From a virus, in the IMG/VR virus record IMGVR_UViG_3300025870_000040, positions 1 through 33,218 of that record: a stretch of 33,218 nucleotides of DNA; one strand, 5' to 3'. Shown here in pieces: positions 22,953 through 31,636 of the stretch. The notes beneath the pieces are model-generated. The model worked only from the letters and a program-made list of their open reading frames with translations, was not told where the DNA came from and ran no database searches. Position 1 is the first letter of the stretch. Each line of letters begins with the position of its first letter. Made by a program: the position numbers and the translations under genes.

Positions 22953-25799
22953 ATGGCATTAAGTCCTCAATTACAACAGTTCAAAAGCTCAGGCGTATAT
23001 CGTTTGGAGTTTGACAAATCACAGACAGTTAATATCCCTGCTGAGACTATTAGATTAGTTGTAGGTAGATCTAAAAAAGGTCCTTACAACATTCCAGTCT
23101 ATATAGAAAACGTAGAACAATTTACGCAAATATTCGGTAGCGTTGACAAGTCACTAGAGAAAAAAGGAATGTTTTTCCACAGATCAGCAAAAGAAACCCT
23201 TTCTAGAGGGCCAATTTTAGCTTTAAATTTAACAATAGCTGACGACCTAGATACAGTTGCAATGGTATCACCAGCAACTAATTCTTCAAAAGAAGGTTTA
23301 GGAGATATTCCACAAAGCGTACAATATAGTTCAGTATTTGATACTGATAAATTTTGGGTTCCTTCAGATCTAAAAGTATTGCAAGCTGCTGGAAATACAG
23401 AATCAGGTTCAAATCACGCCATAACATTCACAAATATCAAACAAGATCCAATTACAATTATTGTAAGACAAGCAGCTAATACTGCCGGATTTGAATTGAC
23501 GGCTAGAGAATGGTATGGAGAAGCTAATATTCCAGAAGGAATTGAAGAATTAGAATACGTATCAGATTACATGGTAGATGTTTTTATCTTTAAAGGTAAA
23601 TTCGACGCGGCAGAATTAAATAACGACCCAACATATGGTGGAATGTTTACAGATAAAGGTCTATTAAGATCTGAGTTTGCTAAATTCGCTGGATTAAGAG
23701 AAGTTAGTTTATTAGCACAGTATACTGGATCATTAATTCCAGAATTCATGGATAACGAAGGTCGTCAATTATACATTGAAACTTTAATTAACATCGAAGC
23801 TAGAAGAACAGGTTTATTCTGTGCAATAAATGAAGATGCGTTAGCACAAATTGACTTAGTAGGTAATACATTTGATGTATATCAAGATTATCAATTACTT
23901 TCACATAGAGTTGATCAAGCTATTGCACCTAGTACAGTAACAGGTTTAAATAAAATAATTAATATTGTTGGAGATGAATTGACAATATTAGATTATGATG
24001 GTAGTGGAGCAGGAGCAGACATTCTTGTAGGCCAGTGGCTTGAATCATCTGTAGACGGAGAATATGTACAAGTAACAGATATCGATTATGATGGAGCTAA
24101 TACAACATTAACTTTAACTGGAGCGCCAAACGAATCTGCATATAAAACATTTTCTCAAAATGGCGTAACGCCAGTTACCTTTGCTAATGTACCAGTATCG
24201 GTAGACGAAAATGGAAATATAGTTATAGACAGTCAATCTATTACACAACCTGGTTTTGCAAATAATAATAAATACTTAAAATCAGTTAATGCTGGAGAAT
24301 TTGTATTAGTAGGAAATGTTGATGAAGGTGTCGATTACAACGGAGTGGCAAAAACAGTTATATCTCCTGTAGGAAGTACAGGATTCGATCCTGTCGAATA
24401 CAACGGTAACTTAAATCAAATTTTACCGTTTGTGCACGTAGCAACAGAAAACTTCTTACAATTCGATATTTCAGAAAACGATAGAGCTGTAATGTTCCCA
24501 TTAGGTGGAGGCGCATATAATTATGATAACACTTCAGCTGGAGAATTTACATTCACAGTAAATACAGTATCTGATGACTTTGATTGGTCAAACATTAAAG
24601 TTGGTATGTATGTACCAGCAGATAAAGATGATTCTACTCCAATTAAAGCAGCAAGAATTACAAGAATTAAAAAAGAAATCAAAGATGATGCAACTCTTTA
24701 TAGATTCAGTATTTCTAGACACATAGTCAAAAGACCAGCATATGCTCTTAAGAGATATGAAGAGTCTACATCAACATATACTATGTTCCCATTAGTTGGT
24801 GCAACTCAAACTGAGAAATCTATTAAAGAATTACTAGACGTAATGGTTCCAGGATCAGGTCTAGCTAATACGTTAGTTGATAAAGATGCAATTACATTTA
24901 GATATGTTGTTGATACATTCGGTTCATTAGGAGTTGGAGGCACAATCTTAAACAAAGAGCAATTATCGCAACTTTGTAAAGAAAGACAAAACGCTTCTGC
25001 AATTCTTAACGCACCAATGGTAAAAGAATTTAAAGCTGCAACTAATCCTTCATTTAAGGATTCAGAAGGAGTATTTAAAGCAAGATTAGTTTCAACTGGA
25101 GGTAATTTAGACCTTAACCCAGATTCAATCTACACACTACCTTCAATTGGTGAAGGTGCAAACTTCGGATTCTATTATGGTCCAGGTTTAAATGTGTTAG
25201 AAAACGGAAGAGTTAAAGTAATTCCACCAGCAGCATACGTATCAAACAACTATATCGACAAATACTTAGACGCATTACCATGGTCTATCATCGCAGGACC
25301 AAGAAGAGGTGTTGTAGGTGGAATAGGTGTACAAGGTTTAGAATTTGCATTTGATAAAGATGACAGAGATTTCTTAGAGCCATTTGGATATAACCCAATC
25401 GTATTCGAAAGAGGCGTTGGTTTAACCATTAAAGGTAATAAGACTGCACAACAAGGTATTCAATCAGCGTTATCTTCAGCTCACGTGAGAGAAGCAATGA
25501 TCTACATTGAAGATGGTTTAGCAGAAATCTTGAAAAACTACTTATTCGAATTCAATAATGCTCAAACAAGATTAGAGATTAAGACTTTAGCAGATTCATT
25601 TATGGAATCAGTTAAAAAAGACGGAGGTGTATACGACTATAGAAATATTATGGACGGAACAAATAACACTAACGAAGTAATCGATAATAACATGGGTATT
25701 TTAGATACATTTGTTGAGCCAGTTAAAGGACTTGAAATCTTAGTATCGAGAGTAACTATCTTGAACACAGGAGAAATCGCAACTGGAAACTTTGCATAA
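22953..25799 (+). CDS. 18: Tail sheath protein gp18, enlarged
   Basis: The 948-aa product is a contractile sheath protein. The N-terminus (SPQLQQFKSSGVYRLEFDKS, then VVGRSKKGPYNIPVYIENVEQF and FGSVD) and the C-terminus (AKFAGLREVSLL, NYLFEFNNAQTRLEIKTLADSF and a final RVTILNTGEI strand) are typical of the T4 gp18 family. The conserved core GPRRGVVGGIGVQGLEFAFDKDD also fits. It is much longer than T4 gp18 (659 aa). Extra beta-rich, Gly/Asn/Asp-rich material lies at about residues 325-560 (for example TILDYDGSGAGADIL and TTLTLTGAPNESAY), probably a surface insertion. Tube gene follows, as in T4. Confidence 0.93.
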   Translation: MALSPQLQQFKSSGVYRLEFDKSQTVNIPAETIRLVVGRSKKGPYNIPVYIENVEQFTQIFGSVDKSLEKKGMFFHRSAKETLSRGPILALNLTIADDLDTVAMVSPATNSSKEGLGDIPQSVQYSSVFDTDKFWVPSDLKVLQAAGNTESGSNHAITFTNIKQDPITIIVRQAANTAGFELTAREWYGEANIPEGIEELEYVSDYMVDVFIFKGKFDAAELNNDPTYGGMFTDKGLLRSEFAKFAGLREVSLLAQYTGSLIPEFMDNEGRQLYIETLINIEARRTGLFCAINEDALAQIDLVGNTFDVYQDYQLLSHRVDQAIAPSTVTGLNKIINIVGDELTILDYDGSGAGADILVGQWLESSVDGEYVQVTDIDYDGANTTLTLTGAPNESAYKTFSQNGVTPVTFANVPVSVDENGNIVIDSQSITQPGFANNNKYLKSVNAGEFVLVGNVDEGVDYNGVAKTVISPVGSTGFDPVEYNGNLNQILPFVHVATENFLQFDISENDRAVMFPLGGGAYNYDNTSAGEFTFTVNTVSDDFDWSNIKVGMYVPADKDDSTPIKAARITRIKKEIKDDATLYRFSISRHIVKRPAYALKRYEESTSTYTMFPLVGATQTEKSIKELLDVMVPGSGLANTLVDKDAITFRYVVDTFGSLGVGGTILNKEQLSQLCKERQNASAILNAPMVKEFKAATNPSFKDSEGVFKARLVSTGGNLDLNPDSIYTLPSIGEGANFGFYYGPGLNVLENGRVKVIPPAAYVSNNYIDKYLDALPWSIIAGPRRGVVGGIGVQGLEFAFDKDDRDFLEPFGYNPIVFERGVGLTIKGNKTAQQGIQSALSSAHVREAMIYIEDGLAEILKNYLFEFNNAQTRLEIKTLADSFMESVKKDGGVYDYRNIMDGTNNTNEVIDNNMGILDTFVEPVKGLEILVSRVTILNTGEIATGNFA

Positions 25800-25837: not shown

Positions 25838-26395
25838 ATGGCTTTACCACATTATTCAGAGGACCAAACGTCCAAAAAAGGCAAAAATTTTGAACCGGTA
25901 CAAGGAAACCTGTTTGAGGTAACTATTTTACCTCCAGACGGCGTAGCTGGACAAGAATTATTGCTCCAACATGTAAAATCAATTTCAGGTCTAGATACAT
26001 TGCACAATGCCGTATCACCTGTAGAACAGAAATACAAATTCGCAACTAGATCATATGCAGGTATGATAGATCAAACTGCGGTAGATGTTACTGTAAACTT
26101 TACATTAAATTTAAACGACTCTAACCAAGCATACTTATATAAAACTATGAGACAATGGTATAGAGCAGCATACAATCCAGAAACTGGCGAAATGGGTCTT
26201 AAGAAGAACTATGTCGGTACTATGGTAATTGTACAATTTAACAGAGAGGGTGATATTTACAGAAAGATTACACTTGATGATTGTTTCATTGTATCAGGTT
26301 TACCAATGACTGGAACTTTAGATTACGGTGCTCCAGAGCCTGTAGACTTAGAAGTTCAGTGGAGAGCTGATGTTTGGGCAGAAGAATTAAACTAA
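25838..26395 (+). CDS. 19: Tail tube protein gp19
   Basis: The 185-aa product is the inner tube subunit of the contractile tail. It has GNLFEVTILPPDG near the N-terminus, the central AVDVTVNFTLNLNDSNQAYLYKTMRQWYRAAYNPETGEMG block, which is diagnostic for T4-like tube proteins, and VQWRADVWAEE at the end. It is slightly longer than T4 gp19 (163 aa). A strong terminator follows directly, ending the sheath-tube unit. Confidence 0.95.
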   Translation: MALPHYSEDQTSKKGKNFEPVQGNLFEVTILPPDGVAGQELLLQHVKSISGLDTLHNAVSPVEQKYKFATRSYAGMIDQTAVDVTVNFTLNLNDSNQAYLYKTMRQWYRAAYNPETGEMGLKKNYVGTMVIVQFNREGDIYRKITLDDCFIVSGLPMTGTLDYGAPEPVDLEVQWRADVWAEELN

Positions 26396-26481: not shown

Positions 26482-26703
26482 ATGACAAATCATAAATTAA
26501 CAAAAAAACTTCAGGTTCTCTTAACAGAAGATGAAGTGTCTCATGTTAATCGAGTCATTCTAAACGAAGCGCTAGAAAACGAAGAGAGACCTGTATCAGT
26601 AAGCGCATGGATTAGACAGTTGATCCAAGCCGAATTGAGCAAACAACAAATAGAACAAAAATCATTTATTAAACAAACTGTTAAAAACTTAAATAAAAAG
26701 TAA
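26482..26703 (+). CDS. Small ribbon-helix-helix (Arc/CopG-like) DNA-binding protein
   Basis: The 73-aa product reads as an RHH protein: a short strand KLQVLL, then helix A (EDEVSHVNRVILNEAL), a turn with RPVSVSAW, and helix B (IRQLIQAELSKQQ), followed by a basic tail. RHH proteins bind DNA as dimers and usually repress transcription. It lies alone between the tube terminator and the gp26-like gene, and its stop is followed after 1 nt by the next ATG, so it is cotranscribed with the chaperone and probably the tape measure module. A role in controlling tail genes or shutting off other genes is inference. The fold call is moderately sure. Confidence 0.7.
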   Translation: MTNHKLTKKLQVLLTEDEVSHVNRVILNEALENEERPVSVSAWIRQLIQAELSKQQIEQKSFIKQTVKNLNKK

Positions 26704-26704
26704 T

Positions 26705-27706
26705 ATGAGCGATAATAACAAAAAAAACGATAGCGATGCTATGAAAGCGTTAGACGCCAAAGATCAAATTAATCAAAGAACAGTAGAATCTCCACAAGAT
26801 ACTGAAGCTGATGCAATGATTGAAGAAATATCTTCAGTTGGATTAGGAAAGGTAAACATGGATCAATTTGGACAAGCAAGACCAGATAAATCTGCTGATC
26901 AGATGTTAGGTTGGCATCTTTTGAATAAAGATACTCTTCCGTCTAAGGGTAAATTTTATCCTGAAAATCTAGTAATACAAATTAGGTCTGCTAGAGCGAA
27001 GGAAATTAGACATTTTTCAACGATGGATGAAACCAACTACATCGACATGGAAGAAAAATTAAATGCTATAGTAGAGTCATGTACTCAACTATTGTCTGAT
27101 AAGCAAAAACTATCATATAAAGACCTCTTGGAAGAAGATAGGATAATTATCTTACTTAGCATCAGAGATTTATCTTTTCCAGAACCTGAAAATAAAATTA
27201 TTTTAAAGGGTAAAACTGAAAAAACTAAAAGACAAGTAGATGTTGAACTTTCTGTTTCTAACTTAATCCCATCTGTAGTTCCTACAGAAATAGAAGATTA
27301 TTATAGTAATACCGAAAGAACATATGTAATAAAAACAAGATCAGCTGGTGTTATTAGAATGAAGCCTCCTACTATAGGCATAATGGAAGAAGTTACTTCT
27401 TATTTAAAGGACAGGCAAGAAAAAGAAGTAGAATTAGACAAGGCATTTGTACAAATTTTACCTTATATTGCTGATAATTGGAGAAGTCTTAATTTACCAG
27501 GAATTTTTAACTTAGAAGTTGATTACAAATCTTGGTCTGAAAAGAAATTCATGATCGTTTATAGATTAGCTGAAAAAATGAAAATTGGAGTAGAAACTAC
27601 ACTTGAAACAGAATTCGACGGGGAGATTGCAAAAGCCCCTCTTGATTTCCCAGGTGGCATCAAAAGTCTTTTCATTATTTCAGATCTCGCTGGAGAATTA
27701 CTTTAA
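26705..27706 (+). CDS. 26: gp26-like baseplate/tail chaperone protein (T4_baseplate family), with probable +1 frameshift end
   Basis: The 333-aa product has the pattern of the T4 gp26-type family in phages (LLNKDTLPSKGKFYPENLVIQIRSARAKEI, then LLEEDRIIILLSIRDLSFPEP, then a TRSAGVIRMKPPTIGIMEE strand-helix). T4 gp26 is a baseplate hub component. In many phages proteins at this place, between tube and tape measure, act as tail assembly chaperones. The N-terminal 65 residues are acidic and probably disordered. The frame ends GELL-stop at CTT TAA G, a prfB-like +1 slip site, and the reading frame entered by slipping is open for 82 more codons. So both a short and an extended product are likely. 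Confidence 0.75.
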   Translation: MSDNNKKNDSDAMKALDAKDQINQRTVESPQDTEADAMIEEISSVGLGKVNMDQFGQARPDKSADQMLGWHLLNKDTLPSKGKFYPENLVIQIRSARAKEIRHFSTMDETNYIDMEEKLNAIVESCTQLLSDKQKLSYKDLLEEDRIIILLSIRDLSFPEPENKIILKGKTEKTKRQVDVELSVSNLIPSVVPTEIEDYYSNTERTYVIKTRSAGVIRMKPPTIGIMEEVTSYLKDRQEKEVELDKAFVQILPYIADNWRSLNLPGIFNLEVDYKSWSEKKFMIVYRLAEKMKIGVETTLETEFDGEIAKAPLDFPGGIKSLFIISDLAGELL

Positions 27707-27707
27707 G
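27701..27707 (+). other. Candidate programmed +1 frameshift site CTT-TAA-G
   Basis: Leu CTT at 27701-27703 is followed directly by the stop TAA. A +1 slip onto TTT at 27702-27704 places AAG at 27705 in the A site, in frame with the downstream ORF. The arrangement matches the CUU-stop slip site of bacterial prfB. No upstream Shine-Dalgarno stimulator is evident. Confidence 0.6.
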
Positions 27708-27737
27708 ACTAAGTTCTACCTGGGTATACATCTTAGA

Positions 27738-27953
27738 ATGCAGCCCTCGGAGATTGAAGAAATGTATTACTACGAGTTTTGGTATTATATTCAGAATCTT
27801 CAAGAGTACATCAAAGCTAAGAATAAACAATCAGAGGATCAACAAGAACAGGCAAATGAACAACATAATTCAATGAGTTCAAAATATAAAACGCCTTCGA
27901 TGCCCAAGATCCCAACAATGAAAGCACCTTCTATGAAGATGCCGAAATTTTAA
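27738..27953 (+). CDS. Second tail chaperone-like ORF (gp51-like position), probably read by +1 frameshift
   Basis: The frame is open from upstream of 27603 to 27953. The first ATG after the gp26-like stop is 27738, giving 71 aa (MQPSEIEEMYYYEFWYYIQ...). The residues immediately before that Met (KTKFYLGIHLR, from 27705) look like part of the same conserved helix. This argues that the frame is normally entered by +1 slippage at 27701, which would give a gp26 fusion of about 415 aa. An in-frame ATG at 27603 lies within gp26 and seems less likely. The tail is a repeated proline/methionine/lysine segment (SMPKIPTMKAPSMKMPKF). Position just before the tape measure is that of the lambda T domain. 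Confidence 0.6.
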   Translation: MQPSEIEEMYYYEFWYYIQNLQEYIKAKNKQSEDQQEQANEQHNSMSSKYKTPSMPKIPTMKAPSMKMPKF

Positions 27954-28027: not shown

Positions 28028-31000
28028 TTGCAATTTCCAAAGTTTTTACAAAGCGCTTTCGATAGACTAGGTAACGATCAAGAATCGATGAAAGCAGTTG
28101 CTGCAAATACTGCAACAACCGCTGCTTCAGTTTCTGTAGGTGGTGCTTTATACGAAAGGGTTGATAAATTAGTAACTGCCATAGAAAGCCTTAAAGGTGG
28201 AATGGGTGGTAAAGCAAATTTTACAGAAGCACTCGCTCTTCGTATTGTTACACCCGCTCTTAAGCCTATTGGACTTGGTTTAGGATTTATTGTCGATGCA
28301 TTAGAAAGAGCACCGGAAGGTAAAGTACTAAAAGAAAAAATGGACGCCATCGTCGGTGGATTAACCAAACTAGGTGATGTCGCAAAATCTATTTTATCAT
28401 TCGCTGGATATATTATATTAGCAATACCGCTTCTTATGGTAGCAGCTGCTACTATTCCTATATGGGCTCCTTTATTATTTTTGGTTGTCAAGACGTTGAT
28501 GTTTGTGACAAAATCACTAGATAAAAAAGCATTAGAATCATTAAATAATTTAGGTGAAGTAGGTCTTAATTTATTAGCACTCGCTGGTTCACTTGCTATA
28601 ATTGGATTAATAGCAGTAACAGCTCTTAAAGGTACTTTAGCCGCAGGCTTAATAGTATTAGCAATAGGAGGTGTATTTATGTTGCTAGAAGAAATGGGAA
28701 TTTCAGAAACTTTAAAAACTGTAGGTACTAATTTAGCAACAGCAGGTTTAGGTATATTAGGTTTAGTGGTTTCTCTAGCATTAGCTGGATTAATAATATC
28801 AGCAGTTGGAGCCGAACCTATGTTTAAAGTTTTAGCTGTGGTTGGCGCAGTTGGACTTACATTCTTTATAGTAGGTCTTTTTTCAAATCAAATAGAAAAA
28901 GGAGCAAAGGCACTTATGTTTGCAGCAGGTTCAGTAATAATTTTAGGTTTAACTCTTTTATTTATGAAATTTGTTATGAGCCAATTAGGTGGTTCTGGTG
29001 TAGAAGGTGGTCCTATGTCATTGATAGATGCTTTACCATCGCTTGGTATTGTCTTAGGAATGGGTATCATTTTCGGTATTTTAGGCTTTGCGGCTGAAAA
29101 TATTGTTAAAGGTGCAGGAGCATTAATAGTTGGAGCCATTTCATTAATAGTATTGTCATTTGGATTAGATATGATCAGCGCGTCTGTTCCTGATCTTGAC
29201 ACATCTTTAGCTATATTAGGAATAGTTGGAGGATTAGGTATAGTATTTGGCTTAGCAGGAATTGGACCAGTTCCTATGGCTATAGCTTTAGGTGCTGCAG
29301 CAATGGCTGCGGTAGGAGTTTCTTTAATGGTTATTGCCGCAGGTTTAGCTATAATAGGACCCGTTGTTAAGGGTATGAAAATGGAAGAAGCTGAGCAAAT
29401 AGCAATCATAATAGGTGGATTGGCGCTTGGATTTGCAGCAGCAGGTTTAGCTGGTCCTTTGATATTATTAGGTTCAGCTGCAATGTTAGTGGCAGGTGTG
29501 GCAACTATTACAATAGCAGCAGCATTAGCCGTACTTGGACTTTTAGATTTCAGTTCACTTGGAACACTTAACGAAAAATCAAGCAAACCTTTTGGATTTT
29601 CTGGTGAAGTTAGTGAAGGTTTCTTAGGTTTTGGTAAGGGTCGTAAAAAGACTAACTTTGAAGTTGCAACAGAAGCAATTGCCGCTGGTGTAGCATTAGG
29701 ACCTTTGCAAATACTTGGAGTTATGACAGGTGCACCGGTATTACTTTTAGCTTCAGCTGCAATAATAGGTATTGCAACAGGTTTAAGACTATTTAAAGGA
29801 ATTCTTGGAGAAGTTAATTTAAGCGACCTCAAGAGTAATATGGAAACGATTGTTGACGCACTTGCGGGTGTTTTCGCAGGAGTTCATGAAAAATATCCAG
29901 GAGAAGCCGGCGAAGAAGGATTTTTAGCTGCTTTGACCGGAAAGGGTAAAAGAGGAAAATCACCAGTAGCACTTGGTATTTCAGCTGTCGCTGGAATGGG
30001 TAAAGCACTTACAGGTATTGCAAAAGGAACACAAGCCATGGCGAATTTAAAGTTCCCGACAGGATTTGATAAAGATGGTAAACCGACTGGATATGAAACT
30101 ATTAATCTAACAAAAGCAATACCACAATTAACATTAAACGTTAAAGACATAGTAACTGGGTTATCTGGTGCATTTGCAGAAGTAGGAGCAGCAAACGGAG
30201 GTGGCGGATGGTTTAGTAGTTCTAATTACGAAAAGGGTGTTAAAGTTGTTCAAGAAATGGGAACACCTCTTTACAATTTAGCAAACGGAGTACAGAACAT
30301 GGCGAACTTAAAGTTCCCATCTGGTTATGATAAAGATGGTAAACCTACAGGATATAAATCGATTGGCAATGTAGGTAAATTGGTTAAAGATTTAACTAAG
30401 AATACAAAGGCTATCATAAAAGGTTTAGCGTCAGTATTTGAAGATATTGGTAAAGGAGATGCAGCAGACACGAGTTGGTTTAGTAAGAATAGTTTTGAAA
30501 AAGGAATTCAGGTTACAGAAATGTTGGCTTCACCGTATGCTAGTTTGGCACAAACAGTGGATGATGTTGTATCTATTACAGGTAAAGTCACAGATGCAGA
30601 TGGTGTTAGAAAAAAAATATCTGCTATAGTAGAAGCTATAACATTATCTGGAGATAACGACATATCTTTAGTAGATGCTAAAAGTGATTTTGTTGAAGTA
30701 TTAGGAGACGCATACGCTAAAATGGGTAAAGCAATTCCTAAGATAATAGACTCAATAGCTAAATTTACAGTAGATAAAGCAAAATCATTTGCTAGTATAT
30801 TTGGTGGAGAATCACCAGCTGAGGCTTTTCCATTGAAAGAAAAATTCATGAGAGCCCTTACTGCGTCATATCTTAGAATGGCTGTTGCTATTCCATTAAT
30901 AGTAGGATCAATTAACACAGTACAAGCTGAACAATTAGATGCATTCTCAAACATATATGGAGGTTCTTTATCAAACTTAGAAGAATCAGCTGTAACAACT

Positions 31001-31636
31001 AGATCTACGTTATTTGATTCAGTCGGCAACGCATATCAAAAATTAGGATCAGCGTCAGGTCAAATAACACAAGCCATAAATTCAGTAGATGAAAATAAAC
31101 TTATAGAATATAAAGGTTTATTTGTAGGTAGAGTTAGTGGATTAAGACCAGTCGCAGGATATGAAGCACAAACTGAACTGTGGAATGCTATAGGTGAAAA
31201 TTCAGGAAAGACATCTAGTAGCATGCCAGGTATTACTGCAGCTGTAAATAGTATGGATATTACTAAACTAATAGAATCTAGAAAAATGTTTGAAGCACTT
31301 GGAGTACTTGCAAATGGAGGTTCTGCCGGTGATATTTTGGAAAGAATGGGAGAATCCTTAGAAGAAGCAATGGAACGACTAGCTGACATTTTAATGGAAT
31401 TCCAAACTTCTGTTGGAGATGCTCAAAATACTCAAGGCGGTATATTATCAGAAATAGCTAGTATACCAGGTAAATTAGTAGGAGGCGTAGTTAACGGAGT
31501 TACAGGTGGTAACAGTAGTAAAGATACTGGTAAAATTACTAAAGCTATCAATGATCTTCGTAGAGCATTACAAGATACTGGAATTAAAGTAAAAGAATTA
31601 CCAGCAGTATCTCCACTTGATAGATTAAATCAATAG
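28028..31636 (+). CDS. 29: Tape measure protein (gp29-like position)
   Basis: The 1202-aa protein follows tube and chaperone genes and has the usual tape-measure make-up: a very long, Ala/Gly/Ile/Leu-rich N-terminal half with many hydrophobic segments (about 120-510, e.g. YIILAIPLLMVAAATIPIW) and a helical C-terminal half ending in a basic segment. It sets tail length and is probably ejected into the host envelope with the DNA. T4 gp29 is only 590 aa, so the tail should be longer. Residues about 671-689 (MANLKFPTGFDKDGKPTGY) recur 87 residues later, an internal duplication. The start is TTG at 28028; the next ATG in frame is 28088. TTG is preferred because the preceding 20 residues (QFPKFLQSAFDRLG) read as protein. 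Confidence 0.85.
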   Translation: MQFPKFLQSAFDRLGNDQESMKAVAANTATTAASVSVGGALYERVDKLVTAIESLKGGMGGKANFTEALALRIVTPALKPIGLGLGFIVDALERAPEGKVLKEKMDAIVGGLTKLGDVAKSILSFAGYIILAIPLLMVAAATIPIWAPLLFLVVKTLMFVTKSLDKKALESLNNLGEVGLNLLALAGSLAIIGLIAVTALKGTLAAGLIVLAIGGVFMLLEEMGISETLKTVGTNLATAGLGILGLVVSLALAGLIISAVGAEPMFKVLAVVGAVGLTFFIVGLFSNQIEKGAKALMFAAGSVIILGLTLLFMKFVMSQLGGSGVEGGPMSLIDALPSLGIVLGMGIIFGILGFAAENIVKGAGALIVGAISLIVLSFGLDMISASVPDLDTSLAILGIVGGLGIVFGLAGIGPVPMAIALGAAAMAAVGVSLMVIAAGLAIIGPVVKGMKMEEAEQIAIIIGGLALGFAAAGLAGPLILLGSAAMLVAGVATITIAAALAVLGLLDFSSLGTLNEKSSKPFGFSGEVSEGFLGFGKGRKKTNFEVATEAIAAGVALGPLQILGVMTGAPVLLLASAAIIGIATGLRLFKGILGEVNLSDLKSNMETIVDALAGVFAGVHEKYPGEAGEEGFLAALTGKGKRGKSPVALGISAVAGMGKALTGIAKGTQAMANLKFPTGFDKDGKPTGYETINLTKAIPQLTLNVKDIVTGLSGAFAEVGAANGGGGWFSSSNYEKGVKVVQEMGTPLYNLANGVQNMANLKFPSGYDKDGKPTGYKSIGNVGKLVKDLTKNTKAIIKGLASVFEDIGKGDAADTSWFSKNSFEKGIQVTEMLASPYASLAQTVDDVVSITGKVTDADGVRKKISAIVEAITLSGDNDISLVDAKSDFVEVLGDAYAKMGKAIPKIIDSIAKFTVDKAKSFASIFGGESPAEAFPLKEKFMRALTASYLRMAVAIPLIVGSINTVQAEQLDAFSNIYGGSLSNLEESAVTTRSTLFDSVGNAYQKLGSASGQITQAINSVDENKLIEYKGLFVGRVSGLRPVAGYEAQTELWNAIGENSGKTSSSMPGITAAVNSMDITKLIESRKMFEALGVLANGGSAGDILERMGESLEEAMERLADILMEFQTSVGDAQNTQGGILSEIASIPGKLVGGVVNGVTGGNSSKDTGKITKAINDLRRALQDTGIKVKELPAVSPLDRLNQ
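30038..30355 (+). repeat. Internal duplication in the tape measure gene
   Basis: A 57-bp segment at 30038-30094 recurs at 30299-30355 (about 261 bp apart), coding MANLKFP-[TS]-G-[FY]-DKDGKPTGY. Flanking residues (GW/SWFS...N-[YS]-[FE]KG-[VI]) are also similar after each copy, so an 87-residue module was duplicated. Confidence 0.85.

Follow-up and report, generated by a model that had tools for sequence, protein, structure and literature searches.

In other phages, tail chaperone genes are known to use shifts of −1, −2 or +1 (PMC5009743), and programmed −2 shifts are rare, a 2016 recoding review naming phage Mu, arteriviruses and one Trichomonas virus. In T4, gp26 and gp51 have been listed among the hub assembly chaperones (PMC3004832). 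As summarized in PMC10885494, Vladimirov, Gautam and Davidson (2022) identified gp26 and gp51 as the tail assembly chaperones of T4-like phages, some of which carry separate short and fused genes. The same authors are credited, in PMC12846349, with the polyT −1 signals of T4-like TAC-N genes. An earlier note on the DNA studied here had stated that no described +1 chaperone frameshift was known to it in T4-like phages; −1 sites are thus published for these genes, but no +1 or −2 site in this group was found in the literature searched, where Vladimirov et al. (2022) was represented by citing papers. A frameshifted T4-like tail chaperone is a known kind of gene, and what appears new is the use of the other frame at the homologous point, with the motif T-MTT-TTC and probably a −2 shift, by a large clade that includes Bacteroidota phages. 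We consider it probable that the present locus encodes a T4-superfamily tail assembly chaperone pair, with the fusion made by a slip at AGT CTT TTC, most likely of −2.

The putative chaperone locus and its relatives

The window, i.e., the whole stretch of 33,218 nt that was analyzed, is a 33-kb viral metagenome record. Upstream of the gp26-like ORF, phrog matches identified a tail sheath gene (22953..25799, + strand; phrog_34521 tail sheath, E 7.5e-116) and a tail tube gene (25838..26395, + strand; phrog_32623, 1e-41, and tail tube phrog_45, 2e-7). A 73-aa ORF with no family match lies at 26482-26703, between the tail tube and gp26-like genes. The gp26-like ORF (26705..27706, + strand) encodes a short form of 333 aa, a putative tail assembly chaperone of the TAC-N type, and ends in GGA GAA TTA CTT TAA, with the stop at 27704-27706. 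Further downstream, a 1202-aa ORF (28028..31636, + strand) gave no match in family searches and is, from its position and length, the probable tape measure gene. The pair formed by the gp26-like ORF and its extension sits between the tail tube and tape measure genes, the latter assigned in this way, and this agrees with the chaperone position proposed in the earlier note. Direct BLASTN of the region against phages returned no match.

A direct Pfam search with the short form found no match, and hhalign related it to the T4-like gp26 of the PF12322 family (96.8%, E 2e-10). Its AlphaFold model (pLDDT 80) matched, in a Foldseek search of viral models, PAU gp93, pT24, PTm1 and the T4-like "baseplate hub subunit", to E 6e-10; the Foldseek search of the same model against the PDB and the sequence search against solved structures gave no match. 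Past the gp26 stop, the +1 frame continues as AAG ACT AAG TTC TAC CTG and ends with TAA at 27951-27953, so that the bases described previously (CTT TAA closing the gp26-like ORF, with the +1 frame open through to 27953) were exact. The same frame is also open 5' of the gp26 stop, back to −110 nt, a feature on which the earlier note did not draw. The predicted 93-aa extension in this +1 (= −2) frame, SLFQISLENYFKTKF...KMPKF (27672..27953, + strand), matched phrog_634 (baseplate hub assembly catalyst, gp51; E 9e-7), with the match beginning 13 residues before the gp26 stop. Tails of the window type also aligned with the gp51 tails of the −1 clade described below (hhalign, 97.6%, E 4.6e-12), and a direct profile match to T4 gp51 alone was not significant. 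Judged by these profile comparisons, the +1-frame extension is real and homologous to gp51, and homology to T4 gp26 and gp51 suggests the chaperone role.

The relatives compared here form four sets: 80 close contigs, 80 more diverse ones, 80 from a further subclade, and isolates or complete huge phages (Tenacibaculum PTm1 and pT24, Chryseobacterium MA9V-1, Flavobacterium MaF61, Sphingomonas PAU, Prevotella Lak and LR7565xx). The Bacteroidota label of the clade was taken from the isolates and not from the close relatives of the window. A search of viral contigs with MA9V-1 gp26 as the query found no relatives. The motif counts given below refer to 158 unique relatives (groups A to C plus isolates), which are not independent. 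Every relative in the four sets retained the gp51-like tail, placed in +1 relative to gp26, and this frame was open at the gp26 stop in 79/79 viral-contig relatives that reach the stop, far beyond chance. The observation is real and more general than had been stated, and the comparative data strongly support the earlier proposal that recoding would extend a gp26-type chaperone to give a short form and a longer fusion. Public records (PTm1, MA9V-1, PAU and cyanophage gp51) annotate only the piece after a downstream ATG; gene annotation would be corrected in these genomes, with the short "gp51" ORFs read as extensions, not genes.

Position of the frame change

The two frames were compared in 1959 pairs from 81 unique, gap-free sequences. 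In the last 30 nt before the stop, amino acid identity was 0.87 in the +1 frame versus 0.59 in frame 0, and in the 36 nt before the proposed slip it was 0.24 versus 0.54. Per-position entropy gave the same register: 5' of the slip, the third position of frame 0 was the most variable (1.28 bits), and after it the first position was (0.77 bits, with 0.22 at the third), the switch falling directly after TTC 27671-27673. In MaF61, frame 0 after SLF had diverged to SVSSRSAVLFSDDE followed by a stop, and the +1 peptide FSLFQVDLQYYF and TCT CTT TTC were retained. MaF61 and the better conservation of the +1 frame before the stop together argue that CTT TAA (27701..27706, + strand) cannot be the entry point into the +1 frame, and we read it solely as the point where the short form terminates. 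The earlier note had placed the slip at this CTT-TAA; the +1 frame is already under protein-level selection 5' of that stop, and the data converge instead on AGT CTT TTC (27665..27673, + strand), 33 nt upstream. The co-conservation check that the note had suggested did not favor its site either, since CTT preceded the stop in only 79/158 relatives and the tail was kept regardless. In group C, the stop context was GAA-TAA in 54/55 sequences, and TTA, CTA, GTT, GAG and TCT were also found before the stop among the relatives.

At the change point, the consensus across groups A to C and the isolates was NNT-(C/A)TT-TTC. AGT CTT TTC was invariant in 45/45 unique close relatives. The diverse group carried TCT CTT TTC in 29/46, plus GGT, AGT, GAT or GCT CTT TTC and TCT ATT TTC; group C had GGT, AGT or GCT ATT TTC in 54/55; and the isolates had TAT, AAT, CAT or TCT before MTT TTY. 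The T before MTT was present in 151/158 unique relatives, and in the codon preceding CTT it had an entropy of 0.00 bits versus 1.29 and 1.05 bits for the other two bases. Departures from the motif were found in pT24 (ACT ATT GTC), Lak (GCR ATA TTC), L168/169 (CTG TTC) and L195/201 (TTA TTT). Comparison among relatives thus shows, at the level of sequence, the frame of the fusion, its conserved site and the homology to gp26 and gp51.

A proposed −2 slip and its competitors

We infer that the fusion would arise in translation, by −2 rather than +1, and in a minority of ribosomes. The majority would terminate at 27704 to give the 333-aa gp26-like short form, and the minority would slip at AGT CTT TTC (27665-27673) into the +1 frame to give a 416-aa fusion, GGIKSLF-SLFQISLENYFKTKF..., with the gp51-like tail. 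In a −2 slip, the Phe tRNA would move from UUC to UUU, and the P-site tRNA would retain at least the middle U pair. Such re-pairing of Phe is possible in 151/158 unique relatives, and forward re-pairing of CUU to UUU (CTT T) in 87/158, all the close ones included. TCT CTT TTC allows perfect re-pairing of both tRNAs at −2 (CUU to CUC and UUC to UUU); the P-site change of CUU to CUC requires TCT or GCT as the codon before it, and in the window, with AGT before CTT, P-site re-pairing at −2 is imperfect (CUU to GUC).

The anti-Shine-Dalgarno-like element AGGTGG (27652..27657, + strand) ends 10 nt before CTT, many relatives having GGAGGG, and it may assist the −2 slip. Anti-Shine-Dalgarno duplex energies upstream of the slip were −7.0, −7.4, −6.2 and −5.6 kcal/mol in the four groups, over a background of −2.3 to −3.3, a complementarity for which the conserved Gly-Gly codons partly account. 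Elements of this type favor backward shifts when they lie about 10 nt from the slip codons, and forward shifts when they lie about 3 nt away, as in prfB. The 10-nt spacing and the re-pairing of Phe are the reasons why we prefer −2 over +1. Ribosomes of Bacteroidota are reported to make little use of Shine-Dalgarno pairing, and therefore the upstream element may not act. No consistent stimulatory RNA structure was found 3' of the window-type slip, the z-scores being near zero in most sequences.

The same fusion, with a product of 415 aa, could also be obtained by a +1 slip in which the Leu tRNA moves from CUU to UUU at 27668-27671, and we regard this as unlikely. The CTT T that it needs is found in the 87 relatives mentioned above, and the movement is the one that occurs at the prfB site, CUU UGA (PMC10885494); however, the window has no in-frame A-site stop at 27671, where a common Phe codon, neither stop nor rare, is found instead, and its anti-Shine-Dalgarno-like element lies about 10 nt upstream, not about 3 nt as in prfB. 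ATT occupied the place of CTT in 55/55 of group C and in several isolates, and an Ile tRNA re-pairs poorly with UUU; the invariant T before CTT would also be left unaccounted for. A slip of +1 at CTT-TAA itself (27701-27707), as first put forward, would give ...AGELL-KTKFYLG. In its favor, CUU-stop is the prfB motif and CTT TAA G was invariant in 47 close relatives, yet we consider it highly improbable: the +1 frame is coding upstream of the stop, a prfB-type site combines a conserved CUU-stop with a Shine-Dalgarno element 3 nt upstream whereas CTT before the stop was missing in 79/158 tail-keeping relatives and present in the other 79, the +1 codon TTT (Phe) accounts for the T of CTT, and a distance of 4-5 nt, not 3, separates the anti-Shine-Dalgarno-like GGAGA from CTT.

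Translation without any frameshift would require that a gp51-like protein overlapping gp26 be made from an internal start, the candidates being GTG 27654 and TTG 27642, both in +1, and ATG 27738. These three codons are conserved in close relatives, and the public records of PTm1, MA9V-1, PAU and cyanophage gp51 begin at such an ATG. Nevertheless, this is very unlikely, as 17/104 unique sequences of the −2 clade have no ATG, GTG or TTG in the stretch from the last +1 stop to the slip, and 26/77 of the −1 clade have none before the conserved peptide; the ATG falls after the conserved LENYFKTKF block, T4 holds the same parts in one polypeptide, and T_TTT_TTC is invariant in the sister clade. The remaining alternative, in which independent, dual-coding genes would be connected by an earlier slip, near GGC ATC (27656-27661), is barely credible. 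Wobble constraint does set in at codon −15 (third base C), ahead of the slip by two to three codons, and is only partly explained by the anti-Shine-Dalgarno element; frozen TTT CCC or TTC CCA codons could point the same way. Just upstream, however, the third base varies freely (codon −16 in groups A and B; GCC, GCG or GCA at −17 in group C), the +1 peptide differs radically at this place (P/R/H), and no common re-pairing exists. The −2 slip at AGT CTT TTC and the two +1 slips would leave different products, the tryptic junction peptides predicted from the window being SLFSLFQISLENYFK for −2, SLSLFQISLENYFK for +1 at CTT and SLFIISDLAGELLK for +1 at CTT-TAA.

Two further observations were made in this region. 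The codons TTC CCA at 27647-27652 of the window, and the homologous TTT CCC in L168-L344, have third positions frozen within each subgroup; they are 7-8 codons upstream of the slip, and coding in either frame does not explain them. The TTT CCC codons are not universal (TTC CCA in the window; CGT or CAA in others), and on this ground a +1 slip of the CCC-N type was rejected there. In Lak (L248 and L249, stop at 2002) and pT24 (L255, stop at 2098), gp51 likewise occupies the +1 frame, but T-MTT-TTC is broken; the gp26 stop of Lak reads TTT TAA, which would permit a true +1 slip there.

The sister −1 clade, T4 and other frameshifted chaperones

Relatives of the cyanophage type had T TTT TTC at exactly −9 nt from the stop in 67/67 unique contigs and passed directly into the −1 frame, with the peptide FFRIALFHNTLEGYYKTNF. 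The heptamer was also found in Vibrio VH7D, Aeromonas Aeh1, Stenotrophomonas DLP6, Nitratidesulfovibrio SRB7757, Rhizobium IG49, Acidovorax ACP17 and Prochlorococcus P-HM1, one codon further upstream in the case of IG49, and Methylophilales Melnitz has T TTT TTT. Single-sequence folds 3' of the slip had a mean z of −2.5 in this clade, and RNAalifold found no consensus helix worth naming. The short form and C-terminal tail of the window are homologous to T4-like gp26 (TAC-N) and gp51 (TAC-NC), with the short/long pair at one locus, and the slips of both clades would fall at equivalent places, directly behind GG-[IL]-x-x-[LF]-F. The gp26 parts of the two clades are homologous as well (96.8%, E 2e-10). 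The −1 polyT signal, however, is an in-frame X_XXY_YYZ heptamer with a −1 extension, whereas the window has T CTT TTC (T-MTT-TTC, not T-TTT-TTC), with the extension in the +1 (= −2) frame. Its proposed slip precedes the stop by 33 nt, leaving about 11 codons dual-coding, versus 9 nt in the −1 clade.

The locus also resembles lambda G/GT in having a low-level frameshift, here putative, late in a short chaperone gene that is flanked by the tube and tape measure genes, although lambda shifts −1 at GGGAAAG and is not known to share sequence similarity with it. If the −2 reading is right, phage Mu offers a −2 shift in a tail chaperone gene (PMC5009743), with a different slippery sequence and phage lineage. 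In T4, both gp26 and gp51 belong to PF12322, and gp51 consists of a PF12322 N-part and a C-part like the −1 tails (E 2e-4) in a single frame; therefore T4 carries the short and long forms as separate genes, oppositely oriented, and a frameshift is unneeded.

In a maximum-likelihood tree of gp26, with long branches and an arbitrary root, the two clades were separated with full support, and T4 gp26 and gp51 fell together inside the −1 clade. On balance, we lean toward a history in which a whole clade of T4-superfamily phages, Bacteroidota phages and huge uncultured ones among them, would use −2 at U_(C/A)UU_UUC with an anti-Shine-Dalgarno element, switched from or to −1 at U_UUU_UUC of the sister clade at the homologous position, and in which the T4 products became two genes. 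A clade-wide −2 shift beside a −1 sister clade, if true, would allow the evolution of a frameshift's direction and size to be studied.

The gp51 of cyanophages has been described as lacking the first ~200 residues, and Aeh1 as lacking gp51 (PMC3037559), and both are explained by the frameshift. The Aeh1 gp26 gene carries GAT TTT TTC at its end, and gp51 is present there, following in the −1 frame (L258:1911-2084). In Vibrio phage K474 (L263, stop at 1921), also of the −1 clade, CTT TTT GCG replaces T TTT TTC before the gp26 stop and is likely a variant slip site.
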